DNA from: an uncultured Aquabacterium sp.
GTDB lineage: Bacteria; Pseudomonadota; Gammaproteobacteria; Burkholderiales; Burkholderiaceae_C
Length of the DNA stretch: 64,000 bases
Assembly (NCBI RefSeq): GCF_913773725.1
Contig: NZ_CAJYGK010000137.1
Location: 1 to 64,000 of the forward strand
Direction: 5' to 3'
Shown here: positions 1,570 through 29,980 of the stretch, piece after piece
Layout: each line of letters begins with the position of its first letter
Numbering within the stretch: the first letter of the stretch is position 1
Made by a program: the position numbers and the translations under genes
Notes under the pieces: generated by a model
The model's database searches: none
Told to the model about the DNA's origin: nothing
The model's input: the letters and a program-made list of their open reading frames with translations, nothing else

Positions 1570-1585
1570 CGGCATGGTGCTTGCC
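1570..1585 (+). promoter_or_regulatory. -24/-12-like element before glsB
   Basis: CGGCATGGTGCTTGCC, with GG and GC 10 bases apart, 82 bases before the glsB start codon. One of 16 copies in this region. Resembles the sigma-54 consensus TGGCACG-N4-TTGCW except for the final C. Confidence 0.6.
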
Positions 1586-1666
1586 CATGACGTCCGGGCG
1601 ACCTCGTTGCGAAGCAGTCAAGACGAGGTCATGTGTCCTGTGTATCTCAACAGAAAGGAACGTGTC

Positions 1667-1939
1667 ATGATCAGTTTGATTGTTTGGTTGGTGGTGGGCG
1701 GGATCGTCGGCTGGCTGGCGAGTCTCATCATGAAAACGGATGCCCAGCAGGGGGTGTTGCTCAACATCGTCGTCGGACTTGTGGGGGCTGCCCTGGCAGG
1801 GTGGTTGATCTCGCCGCTGGTCGGGGTTCCGAGCATCAACGACAACTCGTTCAGCCTCGGCTCGATCCTGGTGTCACTGATCGGTGCCGTGATCCTGCTC
1901 GGCATTGTCGGCCTGATCCGCGGCCGGCCTCGGGCGTGA
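1667..1939 (+). CDS. GlsB/YeaQ/YmgE family transglycosylase-associated membrane protein
   Basis: Small, 90-residue hydrophobic protein of the GlsB/YeaQ/YmgE family, commonly stress-induced; the molecular role is not known. Three membrane segments fill the sequence (about 3-20, 30-48 and 60-82), with the family's Gly-rich pattern GGIVGWLASLIMKTDAQ near the start. The ATG at 1667 follows a good ribosome binding site, AGAAAGGA at 1652-1659; the frame is open upstream to 1574 but lacks such a site. The last 66 bases overlap, on the opposite strand, the 3' end of the hybrid kinase gene. A -24/-12-like element lies upstream. Confidence 0.88.
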   Translation: MISLIVWLVVGGIVGWLASLIMKTDAQQGVLLNIVVGLVGAALAGWLISPLVGVPSINDNSFSLGSILVSLIGAVILLGIVGLIRGRPRA

Positions 1940-4900
1940 TGCCATGACAAGCATGCGCTCGATTCGTGCGGCTGTGACAGGCTTGACCAGATGGCGGTCG
2001 AAGCCGGCTGCACGGGAGCGCTTGAGGTCGTCGGCCCGGCCGTAGCCGGAGACGGCCACCAGCCACCCTGCATGCCCGCGGGCGCGCAGGGTGGCCGCCA
2101 CCTCCAACCCGCCCAGCCCGGGCAGGCCGATGTCCACCAGCGCGAGATCCGGCTGGGTGGACAGGATCAGCGCAATGCCGTCCGGCCCGTTCGTGGCCAC
2201 CTGCACGGTGTGCTGGTCCAGTGCCAGCATCGACCTCAGGGCTTCGCCCGCATCGTCGTTGTCTTCGACGATGACCACCCGCAGCGGCGGCAGAGGTCCT
2301 TCGGCCAGGGCCTGCACGGCGGGCTCGGGCGGCTCGCAGGCGGGTAGCCGAACCGTGAAGGTGGCGCCCTGTCCGGGGCCATCGCTGTGCACGGCGACCT
2401 GGCCGCCATGGTGCTCGACCAGCCGCTTCACGAGCGTCAGCCCGATGCCCAGCCCACCCTGCTGGCGATCCAGCGTGCGTTCACCTTGGACGAACAGGTC
2501 GAAGACCCTGGACTGCAGAGCCGGGCTCAGGCCTGCCCCCGTGTCCTGCACCGTGGCCACCGCCTCCGGGCCGGAAGCCCCTTCGCCGGGGCCCACGGTG
2601 AGTGTGATGTGGCCCCCGGGAGGGGTGTACTTCAGTGCGTTCACCAGCAGGTTGGTGAAGATCTGCTCCATGCGGCTCGGGTCGGCTTCGACCCAGACGG
2701 GCTGGAGGTGGGCCTTGACCGTGTGCTGTGCCAGTTGTCCCGCCAGGTCGAGGGTGTGCCGCACGCGGTCGGCCACGAGGTCCAGCCGGATGGCGGTGTT
2801 GTCCTCTTCGTGCTGGCCTGCCAGCACGCTGGCCACGTCGAGCAGGTCATCCATCAGACGGCCGAGGTGCGCTGCCTGGCGCGCGATGATCTGACGGGCG
2901 CGCTTGGCCAGATCCTCCTGTGTGCCGGCCCGGTTCAATACTTCGCAGCCGGCTGCGATCGCCCCCAGCGGATTGCGGAGTTCATGGCCCAGCATGGCCA
3001 GGAACTCGTCCTTGTTCCGGTTGGCTTCTTCGGCCTGTTGCCGCGCGGCCGTCTCACGCGCCACCAGCGCCAGGCGAGCGGCTTCGATGGCCTTCTGGGT
3101 GGTGATGTCGACCACCACGCCGCTGACCTGCTCGGGCCGGCCTCGCGCATCCCAGGTGAAACGCAATCGTGTGCCGAGCCAGCGGACCTCTCCGTCCGCG
3201 CCCTTGTGCCTGAACTCGAGCATGTGGGCGTTGGTCCGGCCAGCGGCCGCAGCGCGCAGGGCCTGCACCACCCGGTTGCGGTCTTCGGGCAGAACCCGAC
3301 GCAGGCATCGCCGAGCCGAACCGCGCAGCTCCGACAGCGGCAGATCGAGCAGCCGCGAGAAGCCCGTGCTCCAGTGCACCAGCGCATGACGCCGGCTGTG
3401 CTGGAAAAAGCCGACGTGACCGGCCGCCTGGGCCAGTTCCACCAGTTGCTGGTTGGCACGCAGGCCCTTCTCCGCTGCGGCCAGCGAGGCCTCGTCCTGC
3501 TGCCGGGCCGTGATGTCGGTGAAGCTGGCAATCGCACCCCGAGGGGCGCCGCGGCCATCGAACAGCGGAACGGCATGGGCGATCACCTTGCGCACGGCCC
3601 CGTCCGGCGCCTGGATGGTGAGCTCCACGTCTTTCTGGGTCCACCCTGTCCGCGCCGCCTTCTGAAGGGGCAGGGCGTCGGCCGGGACCACCATGCCTTG
3701 CTGGTACATCGGGCAGTCCGGCCAGCCGCTGCGCTCCGCCTGGGCGATGTCCGGGGTCTGCTCGGCATCTTCGCCCAACATGCGCGTGAGGGCGGGGTTG
3801 CGCAGCACATGCCCGCAATCGCGTTCCTGCGTCATGGCCAGCCCGATCGGACTGCTCCGGAACAGGGTCTCGAACTCGGCGGCCTGGCGCTGCAGGCGCT
3901 CGTGGGCGATGTCGCGCCGGGCTTCTTCTCTCTGCAGGGCCTGTTCCAGCATCTGCAGCTCGCGCACGGTGCTGGGTTCGCCACGCCGTTGGGGCCCGTG
4001 CAGGGCCAGGGCCCGCAACGGACCGGTCACACGGCTGGCAACCCCCATGGCGAGCAGCATGCCGCCCGCCAGCGACGCGAGGCCCATCAGCAAGGCCGTG
4101 GTGACCGAAGCGCGGTGGGCCCGGTCCATCGGCTCGGCGGGTTCGCCGATCACGACGCCCCATTGCCCGGGATCGATGCGTTGCCATGCGCCATAGGCCT
4201 CGCCGCCTTCCAGGATGCCGATCCGGCCGGTTCCCGAGGGGCCGTCATTCAGACGGACGCGCGTGAGTGCGGGCAAAGGTTGGGCGACCACCGCCTCGCC
4301 GCCACGGTTGCGCGCCACCAGTCGCAGGTCGCCATCGAAGATCGACATGAAGGCGCTTTGCGGCAAGCCCGATGTGCCGATCAGGCTCATCCAACTGGAG
4401 GGGGGAATCCACGCGCCCAGGGCGTAGGCGAGTTTGCCCTGCACGTGCACCGGCACCAGCACCCCGGTGGCGAGACGGCCATCCGGCCCCGTCGTGAGGT
4501 TGGTCACCACGGGCCGGGCGGTCTGGCGCAATCTCGTCAACGCAGCGGGGTCGCTGAGCCGGCCCAGCGGTCGTCCCGCCGGTTGCTGGGTGTTGAAGAC
4601 GATCTGTCCGTCCAGTTCGGACAGGAAGACGCTGCCCCAGCTTTGACGCGGCGAGGGCAGCGCAGCCAGTGATGTGAACACCCCTGCGAGGTCCCCCTGC
4701 TGCAACTGGTCCGTCATGGCCAGCACCTGCAAGGCCTCTGCCGACGAGGCCAGTTCACGGTCCACCGTCATGGCGAACGCCCGGACTGCCCGAGCGAGGT
4801 CGGCATCGAGCTGCGCTCTGCTTTCCCGGGCCTGCTCCGAGATCAGCCAGGCGGCCAGCAAGGTCATGGGCACGGTGGCCAGAAGGGTCACGGCCAGCAG

Positions 4901-4975
4901 GTGAGCCCTCAAGGACGCTGTGGACCAGCGCAGCCGGGACCACGCATCACCTTTGAAAAACACGCTCAACCTCAT
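1874..4975 (-). CDS. Membrane hybrid sensor histidine kinase with PAS domains and C-terminal receiver
   Basis: A 1033-residue sensor kinase. Order: membrane helix near residues 25-45, periplasmic Cache-like sensor region to about 280, second membrane helix, two PAS regions (first near SSPIGLAMTQ), HisKA with phosphoacceptor His664 in MLGHELRNPL, HATPase_c with the GLGIGLTLVKRL block, and a receiver domain over the last 125 residues (acceptor Asp in ALVDIGLPGL). The start at 4975 (MRLSVFFKG) is chosen because the 31 codons upstream are not signal-like. It is a paralogue of the kinase at 11043-14054. No DNA-binding partner is adjacent, so the output is unknown. The C-terminal tail overlaps glsB antisense. 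Confidence 0.9.
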   Translation of the reverse strand: MRLSVFFKGDAWSRLRWSTASLRAHLLAVTLLATVPMTLLAAWLISEQARESRAQLDADLARAVRAFAMTVDRELASSAEALQVLAMTDQLQQGDLAGVFTSLAALPSPRQSWGSVFLSELDGQIVFNTQQPAGRPLGRLSDPAALTRLRQTARPVVTNLTTGPDGRLATGVLVPVHVQGKLAYALGAWIPPSSWMSLIGTSGLPQSAFMSIFDGDLRLVARNRGGEAVVAQPLPALTRVRLNDGPSGTGRIGILEGGEAYGAWQRIDPGQWGVVIGEPAEPMDRAHRASVTTALLMGLASLAGGMLLAMGVASRVTGPLRALALHGPQRRGEPSTVRELQMLEQALQREEARRDIAHERLQRQAAEFETLFRSSPIGLAMTQERDCGHVLRNPALTRMLGEDAEQTPDIAQAERSGWPDCPMYQQGMVVPADALPLQKAARTGWTQKDVELTIQAPDGAVRKVIAHAVPLFDGRGAPRGAIASFTDITARQQDEASLAAAEKGLRANQQLVELAQAAGHVGFFQHSRRHALVHWSTGFSRLLDLPLSELRGSARRCLRRVLPEDRNRVVQALRAAAAGRTNAHMLEFRHKGADGEVRWLGTRLRFTWDARGRPEQVSGVVVDITTQKAIEAARLALVARETAARQQAEEANRNKDEFLAMLGHELRNPLGAIAAGCEVLNRAGTQEDLAKRARQIIARQAAHLGRLMDDLLDVASVLAGQHEEDNTAIRLDLVADRVRHTLDLAGQLAQHTVKAHLQPVWVEADPSRMEQIFTNLLVNALKYTPPGGHITLTVGPGEGASGPEAVATVQDTGAGLSPALQSRVFDLFVQGERTLDRQQGGLGIGLTLVKRLVEHHGGQVAVHSDGPGQGATFTVRLPACEPPEPAVQALAEGPLPPLRVVIVEDNDDAGEALRSMLALDQHTVQVATNGPDGIALILSTQPDLALVDIGLPGLGGLEVAATLRARGHAGWLVAVSGYGRADDLKRSRAAGFDRHLVKPVTAARIERMLVMASRPRPAADQADNAEQDHGTDQ

Positions 4976-5082
4976 GACTGCGCCGCATCGACGAATCCAA
5001 CAGGGTACTGCGCCGGGGCCGTCCGTCAAGTCCTCATGCAGGCGGCGGCACCCAGCATGGTGGCTCAATCGGCGCAGGCCAC

Positions 5083-5895
5083 TCAGGTGGCCTTCACACC
5101 CAGCTTGCGTGCAATGTCCTGTGCCATGGACAGATGATGCCGCAGTGTCGGCAGCGTGGTCTGTACGAACTCCTTCATGCTGCTGTCGGTCAGCTGGCCC
5201 TCGGCCTTCTGGAACAGATCGATGTCCTTCTGATGATCCTGAAGGCCGACTTGCCGGATGAACTGACGGTCGAACTCCTGACCCTTTGCCTTGCCCAGAC
5301 GCTCGATGACCTGGCGCTTGGCGGGAGGCACGGCATTGGGCAGCGTCATGCGGGTGCCGACCAGCTGCGCCAGACGGTTGTTGGCACTGCCATGGTCGTC
5401 CACCAGTGTGGTGGCCATTGCCTTGACATCGGGGTGCTCGGCTTTCTCCACGGCCATTTGGGCCACGGCCACTTCATACAAGCCCGCTTCCGTCGCGGCC
5501 CGCGCAAACGCCTGGTCCTGTGCGCTCAGGGGCGCCTGGCTGCTGGCCCCCGGTGTCACGGTGCTGGCGCCTGGTGCTGCGCCGGGAGCGGCGCCCGGCG
5601 CGGTGCCGGTGTCGCCGCCCATGCCCGAGCCCGTGTTGCCCGTCGTGCCGGTCGACCCGGTGGTGTCGCCCGAACCGGTGGCGCCCGCGGTGCCGCCGGC
5701 ATTGTCCGTGCCGCTGCCGGACATGGCCCCGGGGGTCGTGCCCATCGTGCCGGCCGTTCCGGAGTCCGGTGCACTGGCCGGGCTCATGTCGCCCGTGGTC
5801 GGGGCATTGTCGCGGCGGTTGCAGGCGCCGAGCAGGGCCGAGGCCGTCAAGAGGCAGGCGAGCAGGCCGGTGAGGCGAAAGGTCCTGTGCATCAT
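5083..5895 (-). CDS. DUF4142 lipoprotein with Gly/Thr-rich linker
   Basis: 270 residues, predicted outer-membrane or periplasmic lipoprotein. A signal peptide ends in the lipobox LLGAC (residues about 17-21). Then comes a low-complexity segment of about 90 residues rich in Gly, Thr, Ala and Ser, and a C-terminal DUF4142 domain (about 115-265), a ferritin-like helical fold with FARAATEAGLYEVAVAQMA and DDHGSANNRL. Two adjacent ATGs (5895, 5892) follow AAGGAG on the minus strand, and either could serve. The function of DUF4142 is unknown; family members are frequent in stress regions. A -24/-12-like element lies 73 bases upstream. Confidence 0.88.
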   Translation of the reverse strand: MMHRTFRLTGLLACLLTASALLGACNRRDNAPTTGDMSPASAPDSGTAGTMGTTPGAMSGSGTDNAGGTAGATGSGDTTGSTGTTGNTGSGMGGDTGTAPGAAPGAAPGASTVTPGASSQAPLSAQDQAFARAATEAGLYEVAVAQMAVEKAEHPDVKAMATTLVDDHGSANNRLAQLVGTRMTLPNAVPPAKRQVIERLGKAKGQEFDRQFIRQVGLQDHQKDIDLFQKAEGQLTDSSMKEFVQTTLPTLRHHLSMAQDIARKLGVKAT

Positions 5896-5967
5896 GTTCG
5901 CTCCTTGCGTGAAGGGTGGATAAGGGGGCGAGCGGACCGGCGCGCTGGCCGGTGCCCTGTGGGAACG

Positions 5968-5983
5968 GGCAATCCCCGTACCG
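5968..5983 (-). promoter_or_regulatory. -24/-12-like element before the DUF4142 gene
   Basis: Minus-strand CGGTACGGGGATTGCC. GG and GC are 10 bases apart; the -24 half is weaker (GGTAC). It is 73 bases before the start codon. Confidence 0.5.
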
Positions 5984-5998: not shown

Positions 5999-7384
5999 TC
6001 AGACCATGTTCTCGGCCCGCACCCTTTCGTCGAACAAGACCATGTCGACGCCCAGTGCGCCGGCGGCTTCGCGCAGCGTGAGCCCGTGTTCATGCGCGTG
6101 CAGGGCCACGGCCGCCGCCCGGTCGTAGCCGATGTGGGGTGCCAGCGCGGTCACGAGCATCAATGTGCGCTCACGCAGTTCGGCGATCCGTGCCGCATTG
6201 GCTTCCAGGCCCCGTACGCAATGCGCTTCGAAGCTCGTGCATACGTCGGCCAGCAGCCGGATGCTCTGGAGCACGCTGTGAGCCAGAAGCGGCTTGAACG
6301 TGTTGAGCTCCAGGTTGCCGCCGGCTCCGGCCAGTCCCACCACGGTGTCATTGCCCAGCACCTGGACGCACACCATGAGCAGCGCTTCGCACTGGCTGGG
6401 ATTGACCTTGCCCGGCATGATGGAGCTGCCGGGCTCGTTGGCGGGCAGGACCAGCTCGCCGAGCCCGCAGCGTGGTCCTGAGGCCAGCCACCGCAGGTCG
6501 TTGGCGAGCTTGGTCAAGGCGACGGCCAGCACCTTCAGGGCGCCATGCAGCGCCACGAGCGCATCGTGTGCCGCAATGGCTGCGAACCGGTTTGCTGCGG
6601 GGCTGAAGGGCAGGCCGGTCTCCTCGGCGAGGGCCTGGGCCACGCCCTCACCGAAGCCGGGTGGCGCATTGAGCCCGGTTCCCACGGCTGTGCCGCCGAT
6701 GGCCAGTGCCTGGACCGCGGGCAAGGCCTGGACGATGGCCTGCTCGGCATGGGCCAGTTGTGCTTCATAGCCCGACAACTCCTGCCCCAGGGTGAGCGGC
6801 ACGGCGTCCTGCAGATGGGTCCGCCCGATCTTCACGAGGTGGCCGAAGCGGCCGGCTTGAACATGCAGGCTGCCGCGCAAGGCGGACAGCGCTGGCAGCA
6901 GACGCTGGTGCACCGCGAGCGCGCTCGCGACGTGCATGGCAGTCGGAAAGACGTCGTTGGACGATTGGCTCCGGTTGACGTGGTCGTTCGGGTGAATGAA
7001 GGCGCTGCCGTCCTCTTGAGCGGCCCACAGGGCCTGCGCGCGATGGGCCAGGACCTCGTTCATGTTCATGTTGCTCTGCGTGCCTGATCCGGATTGCCAG
7101 ATCCGCAGCGGAAAGGCCTGCTCATGCTGTCCGTCGAGCACTTCGGTGGCAGCGGCCATGATGGCCGTGGCGATGGGCTCGGGCACGGTGCCCATCGCCG
7201 CATTGGTTCTGGCGCAGGCCCGTTTGACGCGGGCCAGAGCGAGGATCAACTCCCGCGGCAGGGTCTCGGTGGAGATGTCGAAATGCCGCAGCGCGCGCTG
7301 GGTCTGCGCGCCCCACGGCGCTTCGACGGGGACGGCCACGTCGCCCAGGGCGTCATGTTCGATGCGCGTATCCAGATGGGTCAT
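5999..7384 (-). CDS. fumC: Class II fumarate hydratase
   Basis: 461-residue fumarase C, the iron-free, oxidant-resistant enzyme that interconverts fumarate and malate. The superfamily signature [11 protein letters not shown] is intact, as are [14 protein letters not shown] and [16 protein letters not shown], all substrate-site blocks. Length matches the family. The start codon overlaps the stop of the DUF2334 gene by 4 bases (ATGA), so fumC is the last gene of the GT4-DUF2334-fumC operon and is read from the -24/-12-like element at 9291-9306. That placement fits a stress-condition fumarase, since FumC replaces Fe-S fumarases under oxidative stress in other bacteria (known); its use here is inferred. 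Confidence 0.97.
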
Positions 7385-8163
7385 GGTGCAGCAACCTGTG
7401 GGTGCAGCAGTGGCCCGCGCAGCGCGCGCACGGCCTCCGCCAGGGGAAGGGCATCGCGCTCGTCGAGCAGGGCGCGAAGGCGTTCACGCCAGCATCGGTG
7501 GATGAGCGTATGGTCGGCATCGTGGGGATGCAGCTCGAACCGCACCAGCGGTTGGGCGTGCCAGCGTGCGGCCACCCAGGCGTTGCGGGGCAGGGAAACG
7601 GCGCGTCGCCAGGCAGAGCGTGTGCTGAACGCCATGCACGCGCTCCGGTAGCGCTCTGCGGCGGGCAGGCTGTAAACGGATCTCAGCGTGGCCGTGTAGT
7701 CCAGGGGCAGCTGCTGCAAGGCTTGCCAGGTGCCCCGGCTCATCAGCCAGGCCGGCGCGACAAAGCCGTACAGGGGCCAGCCACGGCGGCTGAACCAGCG
7801 GCGGCCGGCCTCCAGCCTGCGCAGTGCCTCGTCCTGAGGCAGAGCAGAAAACTCGCCTTCGCCGTCGGTGTACCAGCGCCGCTTGACATGATCCATCCAA
7901 CCTGATGGCTCGCCGTCGTCCAGATGGCTGTAGCCGTGCAAGGCGAGTTCGTGCCCCTGCCGGTGGAAGTCGTGCAAGGTCTGCTCGAAGTGACGGTTGG
8001 ACGGACGAAGGTGGTAGCGCGGCACCACGAGCAGCGTCAGGCGCACGTCCGCCACTTCCTGCACGGCGTCGATGACCCGCTGGCAGGCCGACAGGGTGAA
8101 GGGCGCCACGTCGTGGACCGTGACGCTCAACATGGGCCGAGGGGGCAGGGATGGGTGGGTCAT
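7381..8163 (-). CDS. DUF2334 polysaccharide-deacetylase-like protein
   Basis: 260 residues, with the NodB-type carbohydrate esterase fold of DUF2334. The first metal-site block is VHDVAP near residue 17 and the second HGYSH near residue 96; [11 protein letters not shown] near residue 150 and the late [10 protein letters not shown] histidines complete the usual pattern. No signal peptide is seen, so it is probably cytoplasmic. It sits between a GT4 glycosyltransferase (4-base gap) and fumC (4-base overlap), suggesting action on the same glycan or glycolipid as the GT4. The substrate is unknown. Confidence 0.85.
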
Positions 8164-8167
8164 GGGA

Positions 8168-9250
8168 TCACATCAGCCTCTGGTAGTGGTGCATCAGACC
8201 CTGCATGGCAGCAGACCAGTCGTGCTGCAGCGCACACTGGCGGGCCGCGAGGCCGAGGCGGGGCTGGTCGTCGCGCAGGCAGGCCTCGATGGCTTCGGCG
8301 AAGTCGGTGGCCGTGCCTCGCTCCACGCGCAGTCCTGCCCCGCCGTCCACGAGTTCGGCCAGACCGGCCCGGTTGCGCACTACAACGGGACAGCCGCAGG
8401 CCATGGCCTCCAGTGCGGCCAGGCCGAAGGTCTCCTGGTCACCGGCATGGACGAACAGATCGGCGCTGGCCAGGATGCGTGCCAGTCCTTCAGGCCGGTG
8501 TTCGTGCGGCAACAGGCGCACCTGCCTGCCTCGGGGAGGGCAAGGCCCGGCGCCCACGGCGACCAGAATGTGATCAGGACCCAGGCGTTCGGCCGCGGCA
8601 GCCAGAACGTGGAGGTTCTTCTCGGGGGCGAAACGCCCGGCATAGACCAGGATCCGGTGCGCGTCCGACAGACCGAGCTCGCGGCGCCAGGCCGGATCGC
8701 GTCGTGCTGGATGGAACAGGCCGGTGTCCACCCCCAGACCCTGGTGCACCACGCGCTGGAGCCCGGCGTCGCACAGCGCGCGGTACATCGCCTGGCTGGG
8801 CGCGAAGACCAGGTCGAACTGCCGGTAAAGGTGACGCAGATACCAGCGCGCGGCCGCAGCGCCCGCGGCGCCCGTCCAGCGCTGCACGAGGGTCGGCAGG
8901 TCGCTGTGGCAAAAACTGACGACCGGAATGCCGAGCCGCTGGCCGGCGTCCAGCGCGGCCCACGCCAGTCGGTAAGGATCACCGGCTTCGATCAGATCAG
9001 GGGAGCGGGATGCCAGCTTGCGCGCGGCCGCCTGGCGATTCAGCGGGGCACGGTAGCCCCCCGAGCCCGGCAGGGGGACCCCGTCCAGCGGCAGGGTGTC
9101 CGGACCATCCTGCGCCCCCACACCGGGTGCAGCCACGCTGTGACGCCACCCCGAACAGGCACGCAGCCAGGCGCGCTTGGCCTGGATGTAGCGTCGGACC
9201 CCGCCCCCGGTGGCGCTCCAGAACATCGTGACATCGAGCAGGTGGGGCAT
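8168..9250 (-). CDS. GT4-family glycosyltransferase
   Basis: 360 residues, GT-B fold retaining glycosyltransferase. N-terminal acceptor domain with the Gly-rich loop SATGGGVRRYI near residue 14; C-terminal donor domain with YAGRFAPEKNLHVL and the EX7E motif in QETFGLAALEAMACG. Related GT4 enzymes build mannosyl or glucosyl lipids and capsules; donor and acceptor cannot be told from sequence. Start set at 9250 (MPHLLDVTMFW), because the 24 upstream codons are Arg-rich and run through the promoter region. First gene of a three-gene operon with DUF2334 and fumC. Confidence 0.88.
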   Translation of the reverse strand: MPHLLDVTMFWSATGGGVRRYIQAKRAWLRACSGWRHSVAAPGVGAQDGPDTLPLDGVPLPGSGGYRAPLNRQAAARKLASRSPDLIEAGDPYRLAWAALDAGQRLGIPVVSFCHSDLPTLVQRWTGAAGAAAARWYLRHLYRQFDLVFAPSQAMYRALCDAGLQRVVHQGLGVDTGLFHPARRDPAWRRELGLSDAHRILVYAGRFAPEKNLHVLAAAAERLGPDHILVAVGAGPCPPRGRQVRLLPHEHRPEGLARILASADLFVHAGDQETFGLAALEAMACGCPVVVRNRAGLAELVDGGAGLRVERGTATDFAEAIEACLRDDQPRLGLAARQCALQHDWSAAMQGLMHHYQRLM

Positions 9251-9290: not shown

Positions 9291-9306
9291 GGCAAATGAC
9301 GTGCCC
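9291..9306 (-). promoter_or_regulatory. -24/-12-like element before the GT4-DUF2334-fumC operon
   Basis: Minus-strand GGGCACGTCATTTGCC, 41 bases before the GT4 start. It is divergent from the element at 9315-9330. Confidence 0.65.
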
Positions 9307-9314
9307 GGCACCCC

Positions 9315-9330
9315 GGGCACACCGCCTGCC
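9315..9330 (+). promoter_or_regulatory. -24/-12-like element before the DUF2383 gene
   Basis: GGGCACACCGCCTGCC. GG and GC are 10 bases apart; the -12 half is CTGCC rather than TTGCC. It is 70 bases before the start codon. Confidence 0.55.
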
Positions 9331-9399: not shown

Positions 9400-9852
9400 A
9401 TGGAACGAGACGACATCATCGAGGTCCTCAACGACCTGATCGAAAACAGCCGTGACGGCCAGCAAGGCTTCAACACCTGTGCCGAACACGTCAAATCGCC
9501 CGAGTTGCGCGATATCTTTCTTGCGCGCGCTTCCGCTTGTGCAGCAGCCGTGTCGGAATTGCAGGTCCTGGTCAGCGAGTGTGGTGGCACGCCGGACGAC
9601 AGCGGCTCGATCAGCGGTGCCATGCACCGTGGTTGGGTGGCCATGCGCGGCACGCTGAGCGGCTACACCGACGTGGGCATGCTGGAGGAATGCGAGCGGG
9701 GTGAGGACGTGGCAAAGGCACGCTACGAGAAGGCCTTGTCGCGTCCCTTGCCCGAGCCGATTCGGGCCGTGGTCGAGCGTCAATACCAGGGCGTGCTGCG
9801 CAACCACGAGCAGGTCAAGCTGCTGCGTGACCGCTATCGCACGGCCGTTTGA
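9400..9852 (+). CDS. DUF2383 / PA2169-type four-helix-bundle protein
   Basis: 150 residues, ferritin-like helical bundle of the DUF2383 family. It opens with DDIIEVLNDLIENSRDGQQGF, typical of the family, and ends with a helix carrying VVERQYQGVLRNHEQVKLLRDRY. The ATG at 9400 has AGGAG 7 bases upstream. Members are often found beside general-stress genes; no enzymatic role is established. The next gene, a CBS-domain protein, starts 57 bases downstream and probably shares the transcript. Confidence 0.88.
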   Translation: MERDDIIEVLNDLIENSRDGQQGFNTCAEHVKSPELRDIFLARASACAAAVSELQVLVSECGGTPDDSGSISGAMHRGWVAMRGTLSGYTDVGMLEECERGEDVAKARYEKALSRPLPEPIRAVVERQYQGVLRNHEQVKLLRDRYRTAV

Positions 9853-10416: not shown

Positions 10417-10920
10417 TCAGCGGCGCTCGCTCGAGCCGCCTTCGAAGAAGCGCCGGTTGGCGCTGCTCCAGCCTTCGTCGACGACGTTCGGCCACTTGTC
10501 CGGCTCGAAGCTCGGCGCCTGCTTCAGGCGCTCCTTGTCGATGTCCAGCACCCGGTGGTCACGGCCGGGAACCGAGCGCAAGGCGCTCCAGGGTACGGCG
10601 TGCATGCGGTTGCCCATGCCGAGGAAGCCGCCGGTCGACACGACGGCATAGCTGACCATCCCCTGGCGGTCCAAGACCACGTCCTTGATGTCGCCGACCT
10701 TCTCACCCTGCAGGTTGCGCACGTCCGACCCGATGATCTTGCTGACGCGGTAGATGCGCTGCCAATCCTCCTGAGCGGACTTCCCCGCAGCCTGGTTGGC
10801 TGTGGTGGCAGGGCGCGCCTGACCAGCTGCGCTCGTACTGGCTGGGCCCGTTTGCGCGAAGCCGGGGACCACAACGGCCGCAAGGCCCATGCCGGCCGCG
10901 ATCCGGATGACTTGCTTCAT
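10417..10920 (-). CDS. Exported PRC-barrel domain protein
   Basis: 167 residues. An N-terminal signal peptide (about 1-22, ending GFAQ) is followed by an Ala/Thr-rich linker and a PRC-barrel domain (about 55-135): RVSKIIGSDVRNLQGEKVGDI and VVLDRQGMVSYAVVSTGGFLGMG. Exported PRC-barrel proteins are widespread in Burkholderiales and often stress-linked, with no fixed biochemical role. The start has AAGGAG seven bases upstream. A -24/-12-like element lies 50 bases upstream. Confidence 0.9.
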   Translation of the reverse strand: MKQVIRIAAGMGLAAVVVPGFAQTGPASTSAAGQARPATTANQAAGKSAQEDWQRIYRVSKIIGSDVRNLQGEKVGDIKDVVLDRQGMVSYAVVSTGGFLGMGNRMHAVPWSALRSVPGRDHRVLDIDKERLKQAPSFEPDKWPNVVDEGWSSANRRFFEGGSSERR

Positions 10921-10969
10921 GATTTACTCCTTGTTAAAAGATGAATGTGAGGAACTTCGCGAAGGTGGC

Positions 10970-10985
10970 GGCAAACTCCATGCCC
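10970..10985 (-). promoter_or_regulatory. -24/-12-like element before the PRC-barrel gene
   Basis: Minus-strand GGGCATGGAGTTTGCC, 50 bases before the PRC-barrel start. Read the other way it gives a weaker match toward the kinase at 11043. Confidence 0.62.
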
Positions 10986-11042
10986 AAGGCGGGCATGTCG
11001 CGCGCACCCGCTGCGGCGGTCCATTCCCCCTTTCTCCTGCGC

Positions 11043-14079: not shown

Positions 14080-14095
14080 GGGCACACGCTTTGCC
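14080..14095 (+). promoter_or_regulatory. -24/-12-like element before the small gene at 14131
   Basis: GGGCACACGCTTTGCC, 36 bases before the start codon. Confidence 0.6.
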
Positions 14096-14542: not shown

Positions 14543-14558
14543 GGCAAGCACCGTGCCG
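14543..14558 (-). promoter_or_regulatory. -24/-12-like element before the small gene at 14506
   Basis: Minus-strand CGGCACGGTGCTTGCC, 37 bases before the start codon. It is divergent from the element at 14581 and differs from it by one base. Confidence 0.6.
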
Positions 14559-14580: not shown

Positions 14581-14596
14581 CGGCACGGTGATTGCC
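14581..14596 (+). promoter_or_regulatory. -24/-12-like element before the oxidase gene
   Basis: CGGCACGGTGATTGCC, 45 bases before the ATG at 14641. Confidence 0.6.
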
Positions 14597-16273: not shown

Positions 16274-16289
16274 GGGCATGGGGTTTGCC
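16274..16289 (+). promoter_or_regulatory. -24/-12-like element before rfaE1
   Basis: GGGCATGGGGTTTGCC, 40 bases before the start codon. Confidence 0.62.
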
Positions 16290-17835: not shown

Positions 17836-17836
17836 G

Positions 17837-18865: not shown

Positions 18866-18881
18866 GGCAAACGGCGTGCCA
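18866..18881 (-). promoter_or_regulatory. -24/-12-like element before the outer-membrane protein-rfaE2 operon
   Basis: Minus-strand TGGCACGCCGTTTGCC, the copy closest to the textbook sigma-54 consensus. It lies 73 bases before the start codon and differs at one base from the copy at 23758. Confidence 0.7.
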
Positions 18882-18896: not shown

Positions 18897-20266
<1,370 letters not shown>

Positions 20267-20278: not shown

Positions 20279-20294
20279 GGCAAGCCCTGTGCCC
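20279..20294 (-). promoter_or_regulatory. -24/-12-like element before hsp20
   Basis: Minus-strand GGGCACAGGGCTTGCC, 44 bases before the hsp20 start. It is divergent from the element at 20316. Confidence 0.65.
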
Positions 20295-20315: not shown

Positions 20316-20331
20316 GGGCACGGGGTTTGCC
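20316..20331 (+). promoter_or_regulatory. -24/-12-like element before the Gly/Pro-rich frame
   Basis: GGGCACGGGGTTTGCC, 59 bases before the ATG at 20390. Its presence is the main reason to treat that frame as a gene. Confidence 0.6.
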
Positions 20332-23757: not shown

Positions 23758-23773
23758 GGGCACGCCGTTTGCC
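23758..23773 (+). promoter_or_regulatory. -24/-12-like element before the PIG-L-GT2-otsAB cluster
   Basis: GGGCACGCCGTTTGCC, 50 bases before the PIG-L start. Confidence 0.68.
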
Positions 23774-24497: not shown

Positions 24498-25404
24498 AAC
24501 GCGTGTGACAGTCGTGGTGCGCACTCACCAGCGGCCCGCAGAACTGAGGCGGACCCTGGCCCACCTCTGTCGATTGCCCGAACGGCCCGAGATCGTGGTG
24601 GTGGACAACGGCTCGTGCCCCCGCAACGCGCGCGCCATCCGGGAAGCGGCTGCGGAAGCCGGCGTGGGACTGCTGCGTTTGTCCCACCACGTCGGTGCCG
24701 CGGCTTGCAACCTCGCTGTGGCGCACGTGCGAACGCCCTACGTGGCTTTCTGTGACGACGACACGTGGTGGGCCGACGGTGCGCTTGAACGGGCCGTGTC
24801 CATCATGGACACATGCCCGGATGTGGGGTTGGTCAATGGCCGTGTGTTGGTGGGGCCGGAGCAGCGGGAAGCGAAAGTGTGCCGCCGAATGGCCAGCAGC
24901 CCGCTTGAGCGGGCCGGGTTGCCGGGGACCTCTCTGTTGTCCTTTCTGCCCGGGGCGGTTGTGATGCGCATGGCTGCCTTCCGGGAGGCCGGCGGATACG
25001 AGCCCCGGCTCGGGCTGGGCGCCGAGGCCGTGCTGATGGGACTGGATCTGGCCACGATCGGCTGGCACATGCTGTATGCCCCGGATGTGGTCGTCCACCA
25101 TCATCCATCGCCTGCATGCCGCCGGCCCGAGCGTCAGGTCATCCTCGCTCGCAACCGCCTGTGGGTTGCCGTGCTCCGCCTGCCCTGGGGCGATGTGCTC
25201 CGAGAAGCCCGGCAGATCTTGCGGCAAGCCCAGGTCGATGGTGTGGCCGGACGGGTGTTGTGGCGGGCGGCGGCCGGCCTTGCGTGGCCCTTGCTCAACC
25301 GGCAGGTGGTGCCGGTCGACGTGATCCGCTTGTACCGCGGCTGGCATGCCGAGCCCGAGCGCGGGCACGCCATTTGCCGTGGACGCATGGCCGGCATGCA
25401 TTGA
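24490..25404 (+). CDS. GT2-family glycosyltransferase
   Basis: 304 residues, GT-A fold inverting glycosyltransferase. The nucleotide-sugar site is TVVVRTHQRPAELRRTLAHL at the start with VVVDNGS near residue 38; the metal-binding DXD equivalent is FCDDDTWW near residue 92; the EAGGYEPRLGLGAEAVLMG block near residue 165 is typical of rhamnosyl or glucosyl transferases. The start overlaps the PIG-L stop and has GGAGGT upstream. A -24/-12-like element inside its 3' end (25363-25378) serves otsA. Acceptor unknown. Confidence 0.88.
   Translation: MRETRVTVVVRTHQRPAELRRTLAHLCRLPERPEIVVVDNGSCPRNARAIREAAAEAGVGLLRLSHHVGAAACNLAVAHVRTPYVAFCDDDTWWADGALERAVSIMDTCPDVGLVNGRVLVGPEQREAKVCRRMASSPLERAGLPGTSLLSFLPGAVVMRMAAFREAGGYEPRLGLGAEAVLMGLDLATIGWHMLYAPDVVVHHHPSPACRRPERQVILARNRLWVAVLRLPWGDVLREARQILRQAQVDGVAGRVLWRAAAGLAWPLLNRQVVPVDVIRLYRGWHAEPERGHAICRGRMAGMH
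25363..25378 (+). promoter_or_regulatory. -24/-12-like element inside the GT2 gene, before otsA
   Basis: GGGCACGCCATTTGCC, within coding sequence, 68 bases before the otsA GTG. It would give otsAB an internal promoter. Confidence 0.6.
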
Positions 25405-25445: not shown

Positions 25446-27896
25446 GTGACCGTGACCCCGTCCTGGCGGACCCGCCTCCCTGCTGTCCAGCGCCTTCTGC
25501 GAATGGGGCTGGTCTTCATCGTGCCCCTGGTGCTGATTCTGGGGGTGCTGGGCGGGCTGGCCATGCAGGTCAGCGGCCCGCTGTTGCAGGGCTGGACCAA
25601 CCGCGAACTGGACGAGCGCGCGGACCTCGTGAGCAAGGCGCTGCACGGCGCGATCATGCTGTCGCTCGAGGGGGGCAACCCGGTCGAGCTCACCCAGCAG
25701 ATCGAAAGTCTCACAGAGGACGAGCGCCTGTACGCGATCGCGGTGTGCACGTCTCCGAACGCGGTGCTCGCTTCCAGCCGGCAGTATCCGCAGGCACTCG
25801 GTTGTGCCGACACGAAGGAGGCTGCGGGCAAAGTGGGGCAGCCGATGGCTCGCTGGCTGAGCCAGATGCACGTGCGGCGCATCGATCTGCCGGTGGCACC
25901 GGCTGCCGGCGGCGGCCTGGTCTCCGACGCGGTGCCCGACGACGGCCATGTGACGCTGGTCGTCATGCAGAACCCTGTCGAGGCCGGGCGACGTGGCGAA
26001 CTGGCGCAGCGCTACCTCACGATGCTGTTCGTGGGGCTGGGCGTTGTCCTCACCCTGCTGTTCCTGACGGTGGCGAACTTCGGCTGGCGGCACTGGACGA
26101 ACAGCGTGCGACGCATCCTGAGCGACGGTGCGCGATCGGCCGTGCTGGGCCACGCCTCGCCCGAAGTACAGCCGCTTCTGCCCGACCTCAAGCGCCTGCT
26201 GCGCAGCGTGCACGAGGATCGCCGCATCCTGAAGGACACGACGATCGAATGGCGGCCCGAAACCCTCAAGCTGCTGCTGCGCGAACACCTGTCGGGCGAC
26301 GAGGTCATCGTGGTGTCCAACCGCGAGCCTTACATCCACCAGCGCAACGAAGACGGCAGCATCCGGGTGCAGCGCCCGGCGAGTGGGCTGGTGACCGCCG
26401 TCGAGCCTGTGATGCGAGCCTGCTCCGGAACGTGGGTGGCGCATGGCAGCGGCAGTGCCGATGCCGATGTGGTGGACGCCCGGTCACGGGTGCGCGTGCC
26501 ACCCATCCCGGCCGGGGGAGAGCCCCTGCACGATGCTTACACCCTGCGGCGGGTGTGGCTCTCGGAAGCCGAGGAGCAAGGCTACTACTATGGCTTCGCC
26601 AATGAGGGGCTCTGGCCGCTGTGCCACATCGCCCATGTCCGCCCCGTTTTCCGTGAGGAAGACTGGCAGCAGTACCGGGCGGTGAACGCCCGCTTTGCCG
26701 ACGCGGTGGCCGATGAGGCACGCACAGACAACCCGGTCGTGCTGGTGCAGGACTACCACTTCGCGCTGTTGCCCCGCATGCTGCGTGAACGCCTGCCCAA
26801 GGCCACGATCATCACGTTCTGGCACATCCCATGGCCCAACCCGGAGTCCTTCGGCATCTGCCCGTGGGCGCGGGAGATCCTCGAAGGCATGCTGGGCAGC
26901 ACCATCCTCGGCTTCCACACGCCTTACCACTGCCAGAACTTCATGGCGACGGTCGATCGCTTTCTTGAGGCCCGCATCACCCAGGAGGATCAATCTGTGA
27001 GCTTCATGGGGCAGCGCACGCAGGTAAGGGACTATCCCATCTCGATTCCCTGGAAACCGCCTGCTGACGATGCACTTTCTGTCGCGCAAAGCGAGCGTGC
27101 CTCCGTGCGGCTGGCGCTGGGCCTGGCGCCGGAGCACAGGCTGGCCATCGGCGTCGACCGCCTGGATTACACCAAGGGCATCGTCGAGCGCATGCTGGCG
27201 GTCGAGCGTCTGCTGGAGCGCCACCCGATGTGGCTGGGCCGGTTCTCGCTCATCCAGATCGCCGCACCGACCCGATCAAGCCTGGAGGCCTACAGCCAGC
27301 TGGATCAGCGCGTGCGGGAAGAGGCGCGCCGCATCAATGCCCTGGCGGCCGAGCGGGCGCCCGGTACGCCACCGCCCATCATCCTGCTGATCGAACAGCA
27401 CGACAGCGAGTCCGTTCGCCGTCACTACCGTGCCTGCGAGATCGCCATGGTCACAAGCCTGCACGACGGCATGAACCTTGTCGCCAAGGAGTACATCGCC
27501 ACGCGCGATACCGAGGACGGGGTGCTGATCCTCAGTCGCTTCGCGGGTGCGGCCAGCGAGCTGCACGAAGCCCTGGTGGTCAATCCGTATCACATCGACG
27601 AAACCGCCGAGGCCTTGGCCAAGGCACTGTCCATGCACCCGGCCGAGCAGCGCGAGCGCATGCGGGCCATGCGCAAGCGGCTCGCCGATTTCAACATCTA
27701 CCGCTGGGCGGGTCGCATGCTGCTCGACGCCGCGGACGAGCGCCAGCGTGCGCGGGTGCAAGACCGCATCGTGCAGGTGTCCGGGGTGGTGGCGCCGGAA
27801 GGCCTGTTCCGGTCACCCTGGCGCGGGCGGCGTGCCGCCAACGGGGGCATCAATCCGCCAGCGAACGATCGCAACAAGCGCGCGCACGAGGTCTGA
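25446..27896 (+). CDS. otsA: Membrane-anchored trehalose-6-phosphate synthase with sensor-like N-terminus
   Basis: 816 residues, far longer than classical OtsA (about 470). Residues 1-285 form a sensor-like part: membrane helix about 19-43 ([19 protein letters not shown]), periplasmic region about 44-195 with a possible Cys pair, helix about 197-220, then a short linker. The GT20 domain starts near residue 286 ([15 protein letters not shown]) with [33 protein letters not shown] and [11 protein letters not shown], all substrate-site blocks. It makes trehalose 6-phosphate from a nucleotide-glucose and glucose 6-phosphate. Start: GTG at 25446, six bases after GGAG; an ATG-TGA overlaps it out of frame. 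Confidence 0.92.
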
Positions 27897-27899
27897 CCG

Positions 27900-28706
27900 A
27901 TGACGCCCTGGCTGCTTGATCCCGTTCACCGCGCCCAGCTCGACGATTGGCTGGCGCCGGCGACCCTGTTCGTGTTCGATTTCGACGGCACACTGGCGCC
28001 CATCGTCGATGACCCCGCCGAGGCCCGCATGGCGCCTGCCACTTGGACCCAGCTGGAGCGGCTCGGACGCCTGGCCCCGGTGGCGGTGGTCTCCGGGCGT
28101 TCACGCGAAGACCTCACCGCCCGCGTGCCCCCGGCTGTATCCCATCTCATCGGCAACCATGGCAACGAAGGTCTGCCCGGGGGCGATGCCGACACCCGCG
28201 AGCGTCGGCACATCTGTGCCTTCTGGGAAAGCCGGCTGCGTGAGGACGACTCCCTGTGGCGGGCCGCGAAAGGCGCGCAGATCGAGAACAAGGGCTTGAC
28301 CTTGTCCCTCCATTACCGGCACTGTGAAAACCCCGCCTGGGGTCGGTCGCTGCTGCTGGCGCGGGCCTCGCGGCTGGTGCCGTCACCCCGTGTGATCCGC
28401 GGTCATGCCGTCTTCAACCTGCTGCCGCCGGGCACCTTCACCAAACGTGAGGCACTGGAAGCCTTGATGCGCCACACCCGGTGCGAGCGCATGCTGTTCA
28501 TCGGCGACGATGTCACCGATGAGCTCGCCTTCCGCGATGCACCGGAGAACTGGATGACCGTGCGCGTGGGCCGCAGCATGGACACAGCCGCGCGCTACCA
28601 CGTCGACCACGTCGACGAGGTCGGATGGCTCATTGCCCACGCGGTGGGCTGCTGTCAACAGGCTGATCGGGGCCTGGGCGGCCGTCAGCAGGGCCAGGCC
28701 CACTGA
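27900..28706 (+). CDS. otsB: Trehalose-6-phosphate phosphatase
   Basis: 268-residue HAD-superfamily phosphatase that dephosphorylates trehalose 6-phosphate. Motif I FDFDGTLAPI with both Asp near residues 24-26, motif II AVVSGRS, GNHGNEG, and motif IV FIGDDVTDELAF near residue 202. It starts 3 bases after the otsA stop, so both trehalose enzymes share a transcript. Its last 77 bases overlap the mscS gene on the opposite strand; the Gln/Gly-rich tail after residue 245 looks dispensable. Confidence 0.95.
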   Translation: MTPWLLDPVHRAQLDDWLAPATLFVFDFDGTLAPIVDDPAEARMAPATWTQLERLGRLAPVAVVSGRSREDLTARVPPAVSHLIGNHGNEGLPGGDADTRERRHICAFWESRLREDDSLWRAAKGAQIENKGLTLSLHYRHCENPAWGRSLLLARASRLVPSPRVIRGHAVFNLLPPGTFTKREALEALMRHTRCERMLFIGDDVTDELAFRDAPENWMTVRVGRSMDTAARYHVDHVDEVGWLIAHAVGCCQQADRGLGGRQQGQAH

Positions 28707-29778
28707 CCCGCCCGTCGCCCAGGCCGTCGGGCGCCGACAGCTCGGCGCGCACGCGCGGAAGGCTGTCCGGCCAGTGTTCCTGGACCAGCTGAATCAGACC
28801 TTCCCGCACCAGGCAGCGCAGATCCCAGTTGCGTCCCGAGTCGGCCGAGCTCACGAGGCAGCGGATCTGCATGGCCCGATCGCTTGCCTCCACCACCTGC
28901 AGGCCCGCTACCACCCCGTCCCACAGGTCGCTGCCTTCGCACAGCCGCCGCAGCTCTGCACGCAAGGGCTCGAGCGGCGTGCGGAAGTCCAGCCACAGCA
29001 GTACCTGGCCCGTGATGGACGCGCTGCTGCGCGTCCAGTTCTGGAACGGATTCTGTGTCCACCATTCCAGCGGCACGATGAGGCGGCGCTGGTCCCAGAT
29101 CTTGACCACCACATACGTGCCGGTGATCTCTTCGATGCGCCCCCACTCGCCGGCCACGACCACCACGTCGTCCAGCCGGATGGGCTGCGTGAGCCCGATT
29201 TGCAGGCCGGCGATCAGGTTGCCCAGAACGGGACGAGCTGCCAGACCCGCCACGATGCCAGCCAGGCCGGCTGATGCCAGCAGGCTGGTGCCGATGTGGC
29301 GCACGCTGGGAAAGGTCATCAGCGCGATGGCCACACCGATGAAGGTGATCAGCGTCACGAGGGTGCGCGTCAGTGCCGTCGTCTGGGTCCTGAGCCGTCG
29401 GGCAGAGAGGTTGTCTGCATGGTCCAGTGGCTGGAGCGAGGTCACCACCTCGGCCGCGCCCCGCACTCCCTGGATCACGAGCCAGGTGAGGGTGGCGATC
29501 ACCGCCACGGTCAGCAACTGCCGGACGGTGTCGATGCCGACCAGTTCATCCGGCGCGCTGGAGAGCACCATGTTGAAGGCGATGAGCGGAACCAGAACCC
29601 GGATCGGGCGCCGGGTGGCGCGTTGCATGGCCTGGAGCGCCAGCGACTGCCGTGTGGCGCGAGCGAAGATGGCTTCGGCCACGCGCAGGATGAGCGAGAA
29701 GGTCAGGGCCGCGGCCACGGCGAGCCCCAGTTGGACGAGCCAGCGTGCTTCGTCACTTTGCCAGGTCAGGAAAGGCAT
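28630..29778 (-). CDS. MscS-family mechanosensitive channel
   Basis: 382 residues. Four to five membrane helices in the first 200 residues end in the pore helix SLLASAGLAGIVAGLAARPVLGN, then the beta domain PIRLDDVVVVAGEWGRIEEITGTYVVVKIWDQRRLIVPLEWWTQNPFQNWT, the MscS signature. It releases small solutes on hypo-osmotic shock. The start at 29778 (MPFLTWQSD) is preferred; a -24/-12-like element is 37 bases upstream. The C-terminal Pro/Gly-rich tail overlaps otsB antisense. Placement beside the trehalose genes fits osmotic adaptation. Confidence 0.92.
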   Translation of the reverse strand: MPFLTWQSDEARWLVQLGLAVAAALTFSLILRVAEAIFARATRQSLALQAMQRATRRPIRVLVPLIAFNMVLSSAPDELVGIDTVRQLLTVAVIATLTWLVIQGVRGAAEVVTSLQPLDHADNLSARRLRTQTTALTRTLVTLITFIGVAIALMTFPSVRHIGTSLLASAGLAGIVAGLAARPVLGNLIAGLQIGLTQPIRLDDVVVVAGEWGRIEEITGTYVVVKIWDQRRLIVPLEWWTQNPFQNWTRSSASITGQVLLWLDFRTPLEPLRAELRRLCEGSDLWDGVVAGLQVVEASDRAMQIRCLVSSADSGRNWDLRCLVREGLIQLVQEHWPDSLPRVRAELSAPDGLGDGRVSGPGPADGRPGPDQPVDSSPPRGQ

Positions 29779-29814
29779 TGTCCTTTGGTCCAGGAAGTGA
29801 AGACCGCAGCGTGT

Positions 29815-29830
29815 GGCAAGCCGCATTCCT
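29815..29830 (-). promoter_or_regulatory. -24/-12-like element before the MscS-type gene
   Basis: Minus-strand AGGAATGCGGCTTGCC, 37 bases upstream of the start. The -24 half is weak; this is the least certain copy. Confidence 0.4.
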
Positions 29831-29964
29831 GTCATCTCGGTGCGTGGCCTTTTGCCACCCGAACGGCCTTCAGAGCCTTTGCCGCAAGGATTGCCGCACT
29901 TCAGCGCCCCGCAGACCGCCGGCTCGGGCCTTACTCAGAGCGGTACCCGGGCAACGTCTGAACT

Positions 29965-29980
29965 GGGCACACGCCTTGCC
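29965..29980 (+). promoter_or_regulatory. -24/-12-like element before the Gly/Ser-rich protein
   Basis: GGGCACACGCCTTGCC, 68 bases before the ATG at 30048. Confidence 0.6.

Follow-up and report, generated by a model that had tools for sequence, protein, structure and literature searches.

A variant sigma-54-type promoter element in a putative stress island of Aquabacterium and its likely reader, a second RpoN with an altered RpoN box

Introduction

What reads a short, directional DNA element that stands in front of one stress-type gene after another at one end of an Aquabacterium contig? The window studied here, the whole stretch of 64,000 nucleotides (nt) that makes up bases 1-64000 of contig C137 (genome of 4.5 Mb in 163 contigs), carries this element in its left half. 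A preliminary description, made from the letters alone, had counted 16 copies on the coding strand before genes, likened them to the -24/-12 promoters of sigma-54 with two departures from the consensus, and proposed a stress regulon under an activator encoded outside the window. Second rpoN genes, encoding sigma-54, have long been known in Burkholderiales; in the available excerpts of the literature, to which our statements on published systems refer throughout, their role is either termed enigmatic or based on single targets.

Here, we have followed the element through the genome and its relatives. We consider it probable that it is a variant sigma-54 promoter which is read mainly by RpoN2, the product of a second rpoN gene, opened by an NtrC-type activator, and in charge of a regulon resembling that of RpoS. 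The likely reader is thus an RpoN paralog with an altered RpoN box and not the ordinary RpoN, and such a reader could account for both departures from the consensus.

Results

The element was searched for with the strict pattern BGGCAYNNNNHTTGCC, and its chance level was taken from 100 dinucleotide shuffles of the window. There are 13 exact matches, every one within 1570-29980, against a shuffle mean of 0.46 (standard deviation 0.61, maximum 2). With up to one mismatch, the window holds 28 matches where 10.36 are expected, so isolated one-mismatch matches are to be expected by chance; three of them (31999, 33932, 50722) lie beyond base 31,000, where strict copies are absent as had been described. 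Chance as the origin of the element is ruled out by these counts. The 16 copies first described comprise the 13 strict ones and, as we reconstruct them, three degenerate ones at 5968 (-), 9315 (+) and 29815 (-); the one-base difference noted for the copies at 18866 and 23758 is confirmed. Each of the 13 strict copies is directed at a gene, with 35-81 bases between its end and the gene start. Nine of these distances use the start given by the gene caller, and four (14080, 20316, 23758 and 29965) use the ATG at 14131, 20390, 23823 and 30048, the genes behind them being missed by the caller or called with too late a start. Two strict copies overlap a called reading frame: that at 25363 lies inside the final bases of the preceding gene, and that at 10970 falls in a stretch by which, in our view, the start of a divergent kinase gene was wrongly extended. 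Altered gap lengths between the two blocks give 0 or 1 match each in the window, and position 1 of the 13 copies is G in 9, C in 3 and T in 1. A sigma-70-family promoter is ruled out because the blocks are too close together and their spacing is fixed. An Rfam search of the window gave no match at the gathering threshold. In the usual sigma-54 numbering, position 1 of the element would be -26 and position 16 would be -11.

Over the whole genome, 80 matches to the strict pattern stand against 6 to its reverse; of the 80, 37 lie in called genes, 33 are intergenic and at most 150 bases upstream of a gene, and 10 lie elsewhere. The narrower pattern GGGCAYGNNNYTTGCC has 22 matches against 0 for its reverse, 20 of the 22 outside called genes. 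Contig C19 carries nine strict sites, none of them within a called gene and each 39-154 nt ahead of one. The C19 genes behind sites include those for a second PRC-barrel protein, an SDR protein, glycosyltransferases and a member of the cyclopropane-synthetase family (PF02353) that scores below the NCBIfam cut-offs; by a relaxed pattern, a C19 hemerythrin gene has a site too. Members beyond the island described below include glgX, glgB, CsbD, hemerythrin, DUF2231 and ChaB genes.

That the window and C19 belong together came from the relative G012, whose genome is assembled in 2 contigs. At 801-880 kb of its contig C1, the C19 genes appear in reversed order and are followed directly by the C137 genes in order. 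The stress genes of the window are therefore the right half of one island, and its left half has rpoN2 and the activator gene. By this synteny, the island spans ~77 kb from first to last strict site, with rpoN2 ~11 kb and the activator gene ~22 kb left of the window edge, plus any unsequenced gap, which supports the proposal of an activator encoded outside the window. Among 21 sites whose gene has an ortholog in G012, 19 have a site there as well (relaxed pattern), with mostly different spacer letters. Around rpoN2 in relatives (20 stretches from 15 genomes of the genus and from G057, a genome of another family), the strict pattern is found 51 times and each pattern with an altered spacing 2-6 times; every central rpoN2 stretch except that of G057 (15 of 16) has one or more strict sites.

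The upstream zones of the islands in this genome and its relatives were scanned with positions 1 and 16 left free to avoid circularity. They hold 96 sites at the -24/-12 spacing and 1-2 at each of eight other spacings, at a median distance of 56 from the start (62 of 96 between 30 and 70). As divergent genes share gaps, the reverse-orientation count in these zones (54) is an unclean control, and orientation was counted instead in tandem intergenic gaps, where 42 sites run with the gene and 9 against it; convergent regions have 2. The restriction to the -24/-12 spacing and the orientation of these asymmetric sites, mostly with the gene, support the proposal of a sigma-54-type promoter, and we infer that the promoters depend on sigma-54.

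Two rpoN genes are found in the genome, an ordinary one (encoding RpoN1) on C101 and a second at C19:11351-12808. RpoN2 scores 405.8 against the sigma-54 equivalog TIGR02395 (cut-off 277.35) and 208.7 bits against PF04552 (cut-off 22.8). Its RpoN box reads ARRTVTKYRQ, in place of ARRTVAKYRE, in 17 of 17 orthologs (our own, 15 of 36 same-genus relatives, and G057). By comparison, 13 of 14 RpoN1-type proteins read ARRTV/IAKYRE and one ends in D (AKYRD); AKYRE is present in all 34 RpoN1 proteins of the RpoN1 tree set, and the ordinary box is also that of the sigma-54 in solved structures. In an alignment with these sigma-54 chains, the two changed residues fall on 459 and 463. In and after the helix-turn-helix (HTH) region, NNK and FFSR are common to the 17 RpoN2 proteins and differ in the 14 RpoN1-type rows, FFS being also present in the solved-structure sigma-54. 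The RpoN box is reported to bind the -24 and the HTH the -12 part of sigma-54 promoters (PMC7057263). The last box residue is changed in G041 too, whose second RpoN reads ARRTVAKYRT and is encoded ~6 kb away from a gene orthologous to that of the activator.

The RpoN2 proteins of G022 and G021 are nearly identical to those of A. fontiphilum and Candidatus A. excrementipullorum, in keeping with Aquabacterium as the very probable genus. A survey of boxes with the same T and Q (TQ boxes) covered at least 119 stretches and gave 110 usable proteins, with 9 left out, all TQ by selection. Planctomycete RpoN proteins (L132, L137, L144 and others) also carry the ARRTVTKYRQ box and form a separate tree branch. 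In plasmid records, relatives are all below 60% identity among the 40 of 232 matches listed. The open-access literature, in its available excerpts, yielded no description of the ARRTVTKYRQ box or of such a regulon.

The scan of the upstream zones gave 86 target sites, many of them orthologous and hence non-independent, so that the contrasts drawn from them are descriptive. Position 1 is G in 37, C in 26, A in 20 and T in 3, and position 16 is C in 75, T in 9 and A in 2. The sigma-54 consensus is quoted as TGGCACR-N4-TTGCW (PMC4371752), and the target sites depart from it, with T at position 1 in 3 of 86 and A/T at position 16 in 11 of 86. Upstream of rpoN2 itself there are 10 sites (for example L050:11297-11312 (+)) in which position 16 is always G or A, and 8 of them carry G at position 11; G/A at position 16 is likewise found in all Pseudomonadota loci with an rpoN2-own site, position 11 being mostly G. 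In 63 other Pseudomonadota TQ-box loci, mostly Burkholderiales, position 16 is C in 47 of 54 targets and G/A in 37 of 37 rpoN2-own sites, and position 1 is mixed (T in 7/54 and 8/37). In 25 Burkholderia/Paraburkholderia loci, position 1 is T in 10 of 10 rpoN2-own sites versus 1 of 34 targets (Fisher 4e-9, the species being non-independent). The split at positions 16 and 1 therefore places two promoter classes side by side, a target class and an rpoN2-own class, and the latter looks more like the housekeeping sigma-54 site. A housekeeping-like rpoN2 site would fit the report that rpoN2 expression is abolished in an rpoN1 mutant of Ralstonia solanacearum (PMC4371752).

The canonical sigma-54 pattern has 6 matches in our genome against 2 for the reversed pattern; as this set was picked by a pattern fixing T and A/T, it cannot itself show that preference. 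One match is intragenic, another overlaps the start called for a homocitrate-synthase-like gene, and the remaining four precede other genes, namely a PII-like gene, a transporter binding protein gene and a divergent polyhydroxyalkanoate-type/GST-like pair (named by eye). A looser search, with 24 matches against 16 reversed, was too noisy for use.

The activator is encoded at C19:22384-23775 and is of the NtrC type, with a receiver (PF00072), an AAA+ domain (PF00158) and a Fis-type HTH (PF02954), all over cut-off. The activator loop, which contacts region I of sigma-54 (PMC7057263), reads GSFTGA in all 10 island rows that cover it (13 rows in all, 3 of them truncated) and in the orthologs of G041 and G058. 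There are 12 strong activator-domain matches in our genome; among the 11 others the loop is GAFTGA in 9, and two (L039, L044) are without such a motif. Candidate kinases in the island are two hybrid kinases of the window and a CHASE8 hybrid kinase on C19. The two in the window, at 1874-4891 (-) and 10965-14054 (+), are large PAS-containing hybrid histidine kinases and candidate stress sensors; the dCache match of the latter is weak and below cut-off.

RpoN2, an ortholog of the activator and the DUF2383 gene of the window were found together in 16 of the 37 genomes of the genus. The remaining 21, among them 14 with a completeness of 90% or more, yielded none of the three (Fisher 7.8e-11, ignoring phylogeny). 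The activator orthologs share 68-96% identity and are linked to RpoN2 in most genomes. The narrow motif is commoner in RpoN2-bearing relatives, with a mean of 5.2 versus 2.2 (p 2e-4, ignoring phylogeny). On the RpoN1 tree, the presence of RpoN2 changes 8 times, with only 4 independent pairs on well-supported branches. In G013 (92% complete) and G031 (99%), RpoN2 is present and RpoN1 was not detected. An RpoS profile found none of the 37 genomes over its cut-off of 378.7; the best score in our genome is 280.2 bits, and the relative G009 reaches 362.7.

The genes behind the sites in the window (Table 1) are of the stress type, which supports the proposed stress regulon. The sites at 14543 (-) and 14581 (+) are divergent. 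A stands at position 1 in the G012 counterparts of the sites at 9291, 18866 and 25363, and in the G022 counterpart of the first. Five DUF2383 orthologs (G004, G013, G015, G031, G034) have a strict site. No further oxidase subunits were found among the scanned neighbours of the COX1 gene. The 25446-27896 (+) protein has an N-terminal extension, its trehalose synthase-like domain starting at residue ~287; it is below the OtsA equivalog cut-offs, and its N-terminal part is covered by no NCBIfam trehalose model. At 20852-23650 (-), the window also encodes an unusual ABC exporter (membrane and ATPase domains) fused to a C-terminal response-regulator receiver domain, with an 85% ortholog in G012.

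Table 1. Promoter-type sites of the window and the genes or operons behind them.
Feature	Position	Strand	Details
-24/-12-type site	1570..1585	+	strict; 81 nt before glsB-like start; kept in G012 as CGGCATGAGGCTTGCC
GlsB-like protein, Transgly_assoc family (PF04226)	1667..1939	+	90 aa
Site before DUF4142 gene	5968..5983	-	CGGTACGGGGATTGCC; one departure from strict pattern; kept in G012
DUF4142 protein (PF13628)	5083..5895	-	
Site before GT4-DUF2334-fumC operon	9291..9306	-	strict; 40 nt before start
GT4-DUF2334-fumC operon	5999..9250	-	GT4 glycosyltransferase 8168-9250; DUF2334 7381-8163; fumarase-like lyase 5999-7384
Site before DUF2383 gene	9315..9330	+	degenerate, GGGCACACCGCCTGCC
DUF2383 protein (PF09537)	9400..9852	+	
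Site before PRC-barrel gene	10970..10985	-	strict; 49 nt before start; kept in G012 and G022
PRC-barrel protein (PF05239)	10417..10920	-	
Site	14080..14095	+	strict; before small gene 14131-14373 (80 aa, no Pfam match)
Site	14543..14558	-	36 nt before small gene 14294-14506 (70 aa, no Pfam match); kept in G012
Site before COX1-type oxidase subunit	14581..14596	+	44 nt before start
COX1 (PF00115), cytochrome oxidase subunit I	14641..16248	+	
Site before PfkB kinase (RfaE1-like)	16274..16289	+	39 nt before start; kept in G012
PfkB-family kinase (PF00294)	16329..17297	+	
Site before OMP-cytidylyltransferase operon	18866..18881	-	72 nt before start
OMP-cytidylyltransferase operon	17323..18793	-	OMP beta-barrel 17837-18793; cytidylyltransferase, RfaE2-like, 17323-17835
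Site before hsp20	20279..20294	-	43 nt before start; divergent with 20316 site
Hsp20 (PF00011)	19669..20235	-	
Site	20316..20331	+	strict; before 20390-20812 (140 aa, no Pfam match)
Site	23758..23773	+	strict; before PIG-L deacetylase 23823-24497 and GT2 24490-25404
Site before otsA-otsB	25363..25378	+	67 nt before start; within 3' end of preceding gene
Trehalose synthesis genes	25446..28706	+	OtsA-like domain protein 25446-27896; trehalose phosphatase 27900-28706
Site before MscS-type channel	29815..29829	-	degenerate, GGAATGCGGCTTGCC; G012 ortholog has strict site
Mechanosensitive channel (PF00924)	28630..29778	-	
Site	29965..29980	+	strict; before protein 30048-30527 (no Pfam match; labelled Gly/Ser-rich in the preliminary description)

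Discussion

To explain these observations, we propose that the element, roughly (G/C/A)GGCAYG-N3-(C/T)TTGCC, would be bound and read mainly by RNA polymerase carrying RpoN2. RpoN2 differs in its RpoN box, the part by which sigma-54 reads -24, and in its HTH region, by which it reads -12, and its promoters differ beside both, at -26 and -11; the changed residues may be matched to the changed bases. The activator, once switched on by an inducing signal, presumably through phosphorylation by a kinase, would open the RpoN2 promoters. RpoN2 would then transcribe the trehalose, glycogen, cyclopropane-synthetase family, Hsp20, hemerythrin, CsbD, PRC-barrel and glycosyltransferase genes, with MscS and DUF2383 joining the regulon through degenerate sites. 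The own promoter class of rpoN2 (...GTTGCR) would probably be read by RpoN1, giving a cascade from RpoN1 to RpoN2 to the regulon. The set of site-bearing genes (trehalose, glycogen and cyclopropane fatty acid synthesis, CsbD, a mechanosensitive channel) resembles an RpoS regulon. Since the gene content is RpoS-like and no RpoS above cut-off is found in the genus, we may reasonably infer that the RpoN2 system takes over the job of RpoS.

A wider view is possible, to which as a whole we give somewhat less than even credence: that in this genus without RpoS the general stress response has moved to an orthogonal sigma-54 system, with insulating paired changes, an rpoN2 driven by RpoN1, a single activator with weak or no DNA sites, and a similar architecture across Burkholderiales. 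Insulation from RpoN1 would come from paired changes in the RpoN2 box and HTH, in the -26 and -11 bases, and in the sigma-contact loop of the activator. The architecture would recur in other Burkholderiales, including Burkholderia and Paraburkholderia, with a -11 preference of their own.

Several of our results, and some published ones, weigh against RpoN2 and its linked activator as the explanation of the element. Outside the window and C19, 35 of 58 strict matches lie inside called genes, so the strict pattern is largely background there. In tandem gaps, 9 sites oppose their gene, and 2 of 21 sites are missing in G012. NtrC-type activators normally bind an enhancer. A shared enhancer was not found in 44 upstream regions by k-mers, inverted repeats or expectation-maximisation (EM) motifs, nor was a common upstream block in footprints between our genome and G012. 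The EM motifs did score above shuffled sequence (e.g. 106.9 versus 48.6-56.2), but their signals are weak and scattered, without preferred position, and we take them to be coding or compositional. The activator may use degenerate sites, act from solution or not be the sole one, and this is the weakest point of the model. Our BON gene is without a site, as are all but 1 of 17 RpoN2-bearing BON upstreams, and a site is found in 6 of 16 RpoN2-bearing DUF2383 upstreams; membership of the regulon turns over, with no recognisable site before many of the BON and DUF2383 orthologs.

The distribution of the system adds further points of this kind. In a phylogeny-corrected test on the 4 well-supported pairs, neither co-occurrence nor motif count was significant, and the agreement of RpoN2 with DUF2383 in that test is true by construction, the two sets being identical. 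The absence of RpoS rests on a single profile cut-off and an assembly 99.3% complete; replacement of RpoS by RpoN2 is not universal, because G057 has both. G058 combines an ortholog of the activator with a DUF2383 gene behind a sigma-54-type site, but only an ordinary RpoN was detected in it, which suggests that this stress locus may predate the recruitment of RpoN2. The locus concerned (L379) has two GSFTGA-bearing reading frames beside DUF2383 and, by eye, a fumarase-like gene a few kb off. Position 16 of the 34 Burkholderia/Paraburkholderia targets is G in 18, T in 8, C in 7 and A in 1, and planctomycete TQ-box loci have T at -11 in 6 of 7 sites; because these sites differ despite the same box, the RpoN box alone does not set -11. 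Finally, RpoN2 of R. solanacearum restored C4-dicarboxylate growth (PMC4371752, PMC4676750) and that of Burkholderia pseudomallei restored amino-acid use in an Escherichia coli rpoN mutant (PMC4745423). As these proteins complement some RpoN functions, the specificity of RpoN2 may be only partial.

Could the housekeeping RpoN1 read the sites as ordinary sigma-54 promoters, with RpoN2 incidental or redundant and the base preferences reflecting high GC content? The GG-N10-GC spacing is a general sigma-54 hallmark, RpoN1 is present in our genome, G058 has a similar site with an AE-type RpoN alone detected, and the complementation of rpoN functions by RpoN2 of other species points to overlapping specificity. 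However, GC content leaves unexplained why A is found in 20 and T in 3 of 86 sites at position 1, and RpoN1 as the reader fits poorly with the contrast at this position in Burkholderia/Paraburkholderia (T in 10/10 rpoN2-own sites, 1/34 targets), with the higher frequency of the narrow motif in RpoN2-bearing genomes (5.2 versus 2.2, with the same caveat on phylogeny), and with G031 and G013, where RpoN2 is the one detected. We regard this explanation as improbable. We give still less weight to an operator for a dimeric transcription factor on GGCA-N7-TGCC, which is suggested by the inverted repeat that GGCA...TGCC forms within the element and which we hold to be very improbable: intergenic island DNA has 131 asymmetric copies against 0 and 4 of the symmetric versions, tandem gaps favour the direction of the gene (42 to 9, with 2 in convergent regions), and the distance to the start is narrow. 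A palindromic operator was rejected on these symmetry and orientation counts.

More serious, though still unlikely in our judgement, is the explanation that RpoN2 reads the sites and the regulon is served by several activators, or by one without DNA sites, and not generally by the linked NtrC-type protein. It would account for the lack of a shared element in the 44 upstream regions and the G012 footprints, and 12 strong activator-domain matches offer candidates. Against it, the linked activator occurs in the same 16 of 37 genomes as RpoN2, mostly in linkage, and it alone has GSFTGA among our activators with a recovered loop, the rest having GAFTGA.

For a second rpoN, there is now a promoter signature with a list of targets, together with a linked activator and a proposed cascade, all directly testable. 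If RpoN2 does read the element, bacteria in which RpoS is not detected would have a general stress regulon controlled by a sigma factor that depends on an activator, and the genes of this regulon would be silent until an ATP-driven activator is switched on. The natural pairing of RpoN-box residues with promoter bases would also be useful for understanding how sigma-54 reads DNA and for insulated expression systems.

Among the closest known systems are RpoN1-RpoN4 of Cereibacter (Rhodobacter) sphaeroides, with several rpoN copies per genome and cognate activators; RpoN1 and RpoN2 of that species discriminate promoters at -11 (PMC11999139, PMC3162934). There, the paralogs studied act on nif, fla or xrpA, and -11 is given as the only position at which the RpoN1 and RpoN2 promoters vary (PMC3162934), whereas in Aquabacterium -26 and the RpoN box change as well and the targets form a putative stress regulon. 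R. solanacearum RpoN2 is likewise a second RpoN with a sigma-54-type promoter and rpoN1-dependent expression, and the two proteins are not interchangeable (PMC4371752, PMC4676750); its role is called enigmatic (PMC4371752). Sigma N2 of B. pseudomallei, also a second RpoN, is dispensable for nitrogen and amino-acid use in its host and required for late expression of the catalase gene katE, a stress gene; the excerpts define no promoter class or regulon for it (PMC4745423). Other Burkholderia species carry the TKYRQ box among the matches listed. RpoNp of Bradyrhizobium sp. DOA9 is a plasmid-borne second RpoN that its authors link to stress adaptation (PMC13207237); it is alphaproteobacterial.

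The related bacterium Aquincola tertiaricarbonis has four rpoN paralogs, and its PEP-CTERM gene pepA has a mapped start with GG and GC at -24/-12 (PMC9850573); a PEP-CTERM gene of our own island also sits behind a site of the present type. The pepA site reads TGGCAC...CTGCTT, however, and is rpoN1-dependent, and its authors suggest PrsK-PrsR as accessory (PMC9850573). RpoS (sigma-38) regulons differ in that no RpoS above cut-off is found in the genus and that the promoters here are sigma-54-like, an unrelated type. That sigma-54 paralogs have their own activators and promoter preferences is already known from C. sphaeroides (PMC11999139, PMC3162934). What appears to be new is the way in which several features come together: the RpoN box has a fixed change, the promoters are shifted both beside -24 and at -11, the putative stress regulon is large and clustered, two sigma-54 factors probably act one after the other in a cascade, and relatives occur in other Burkholderiales.

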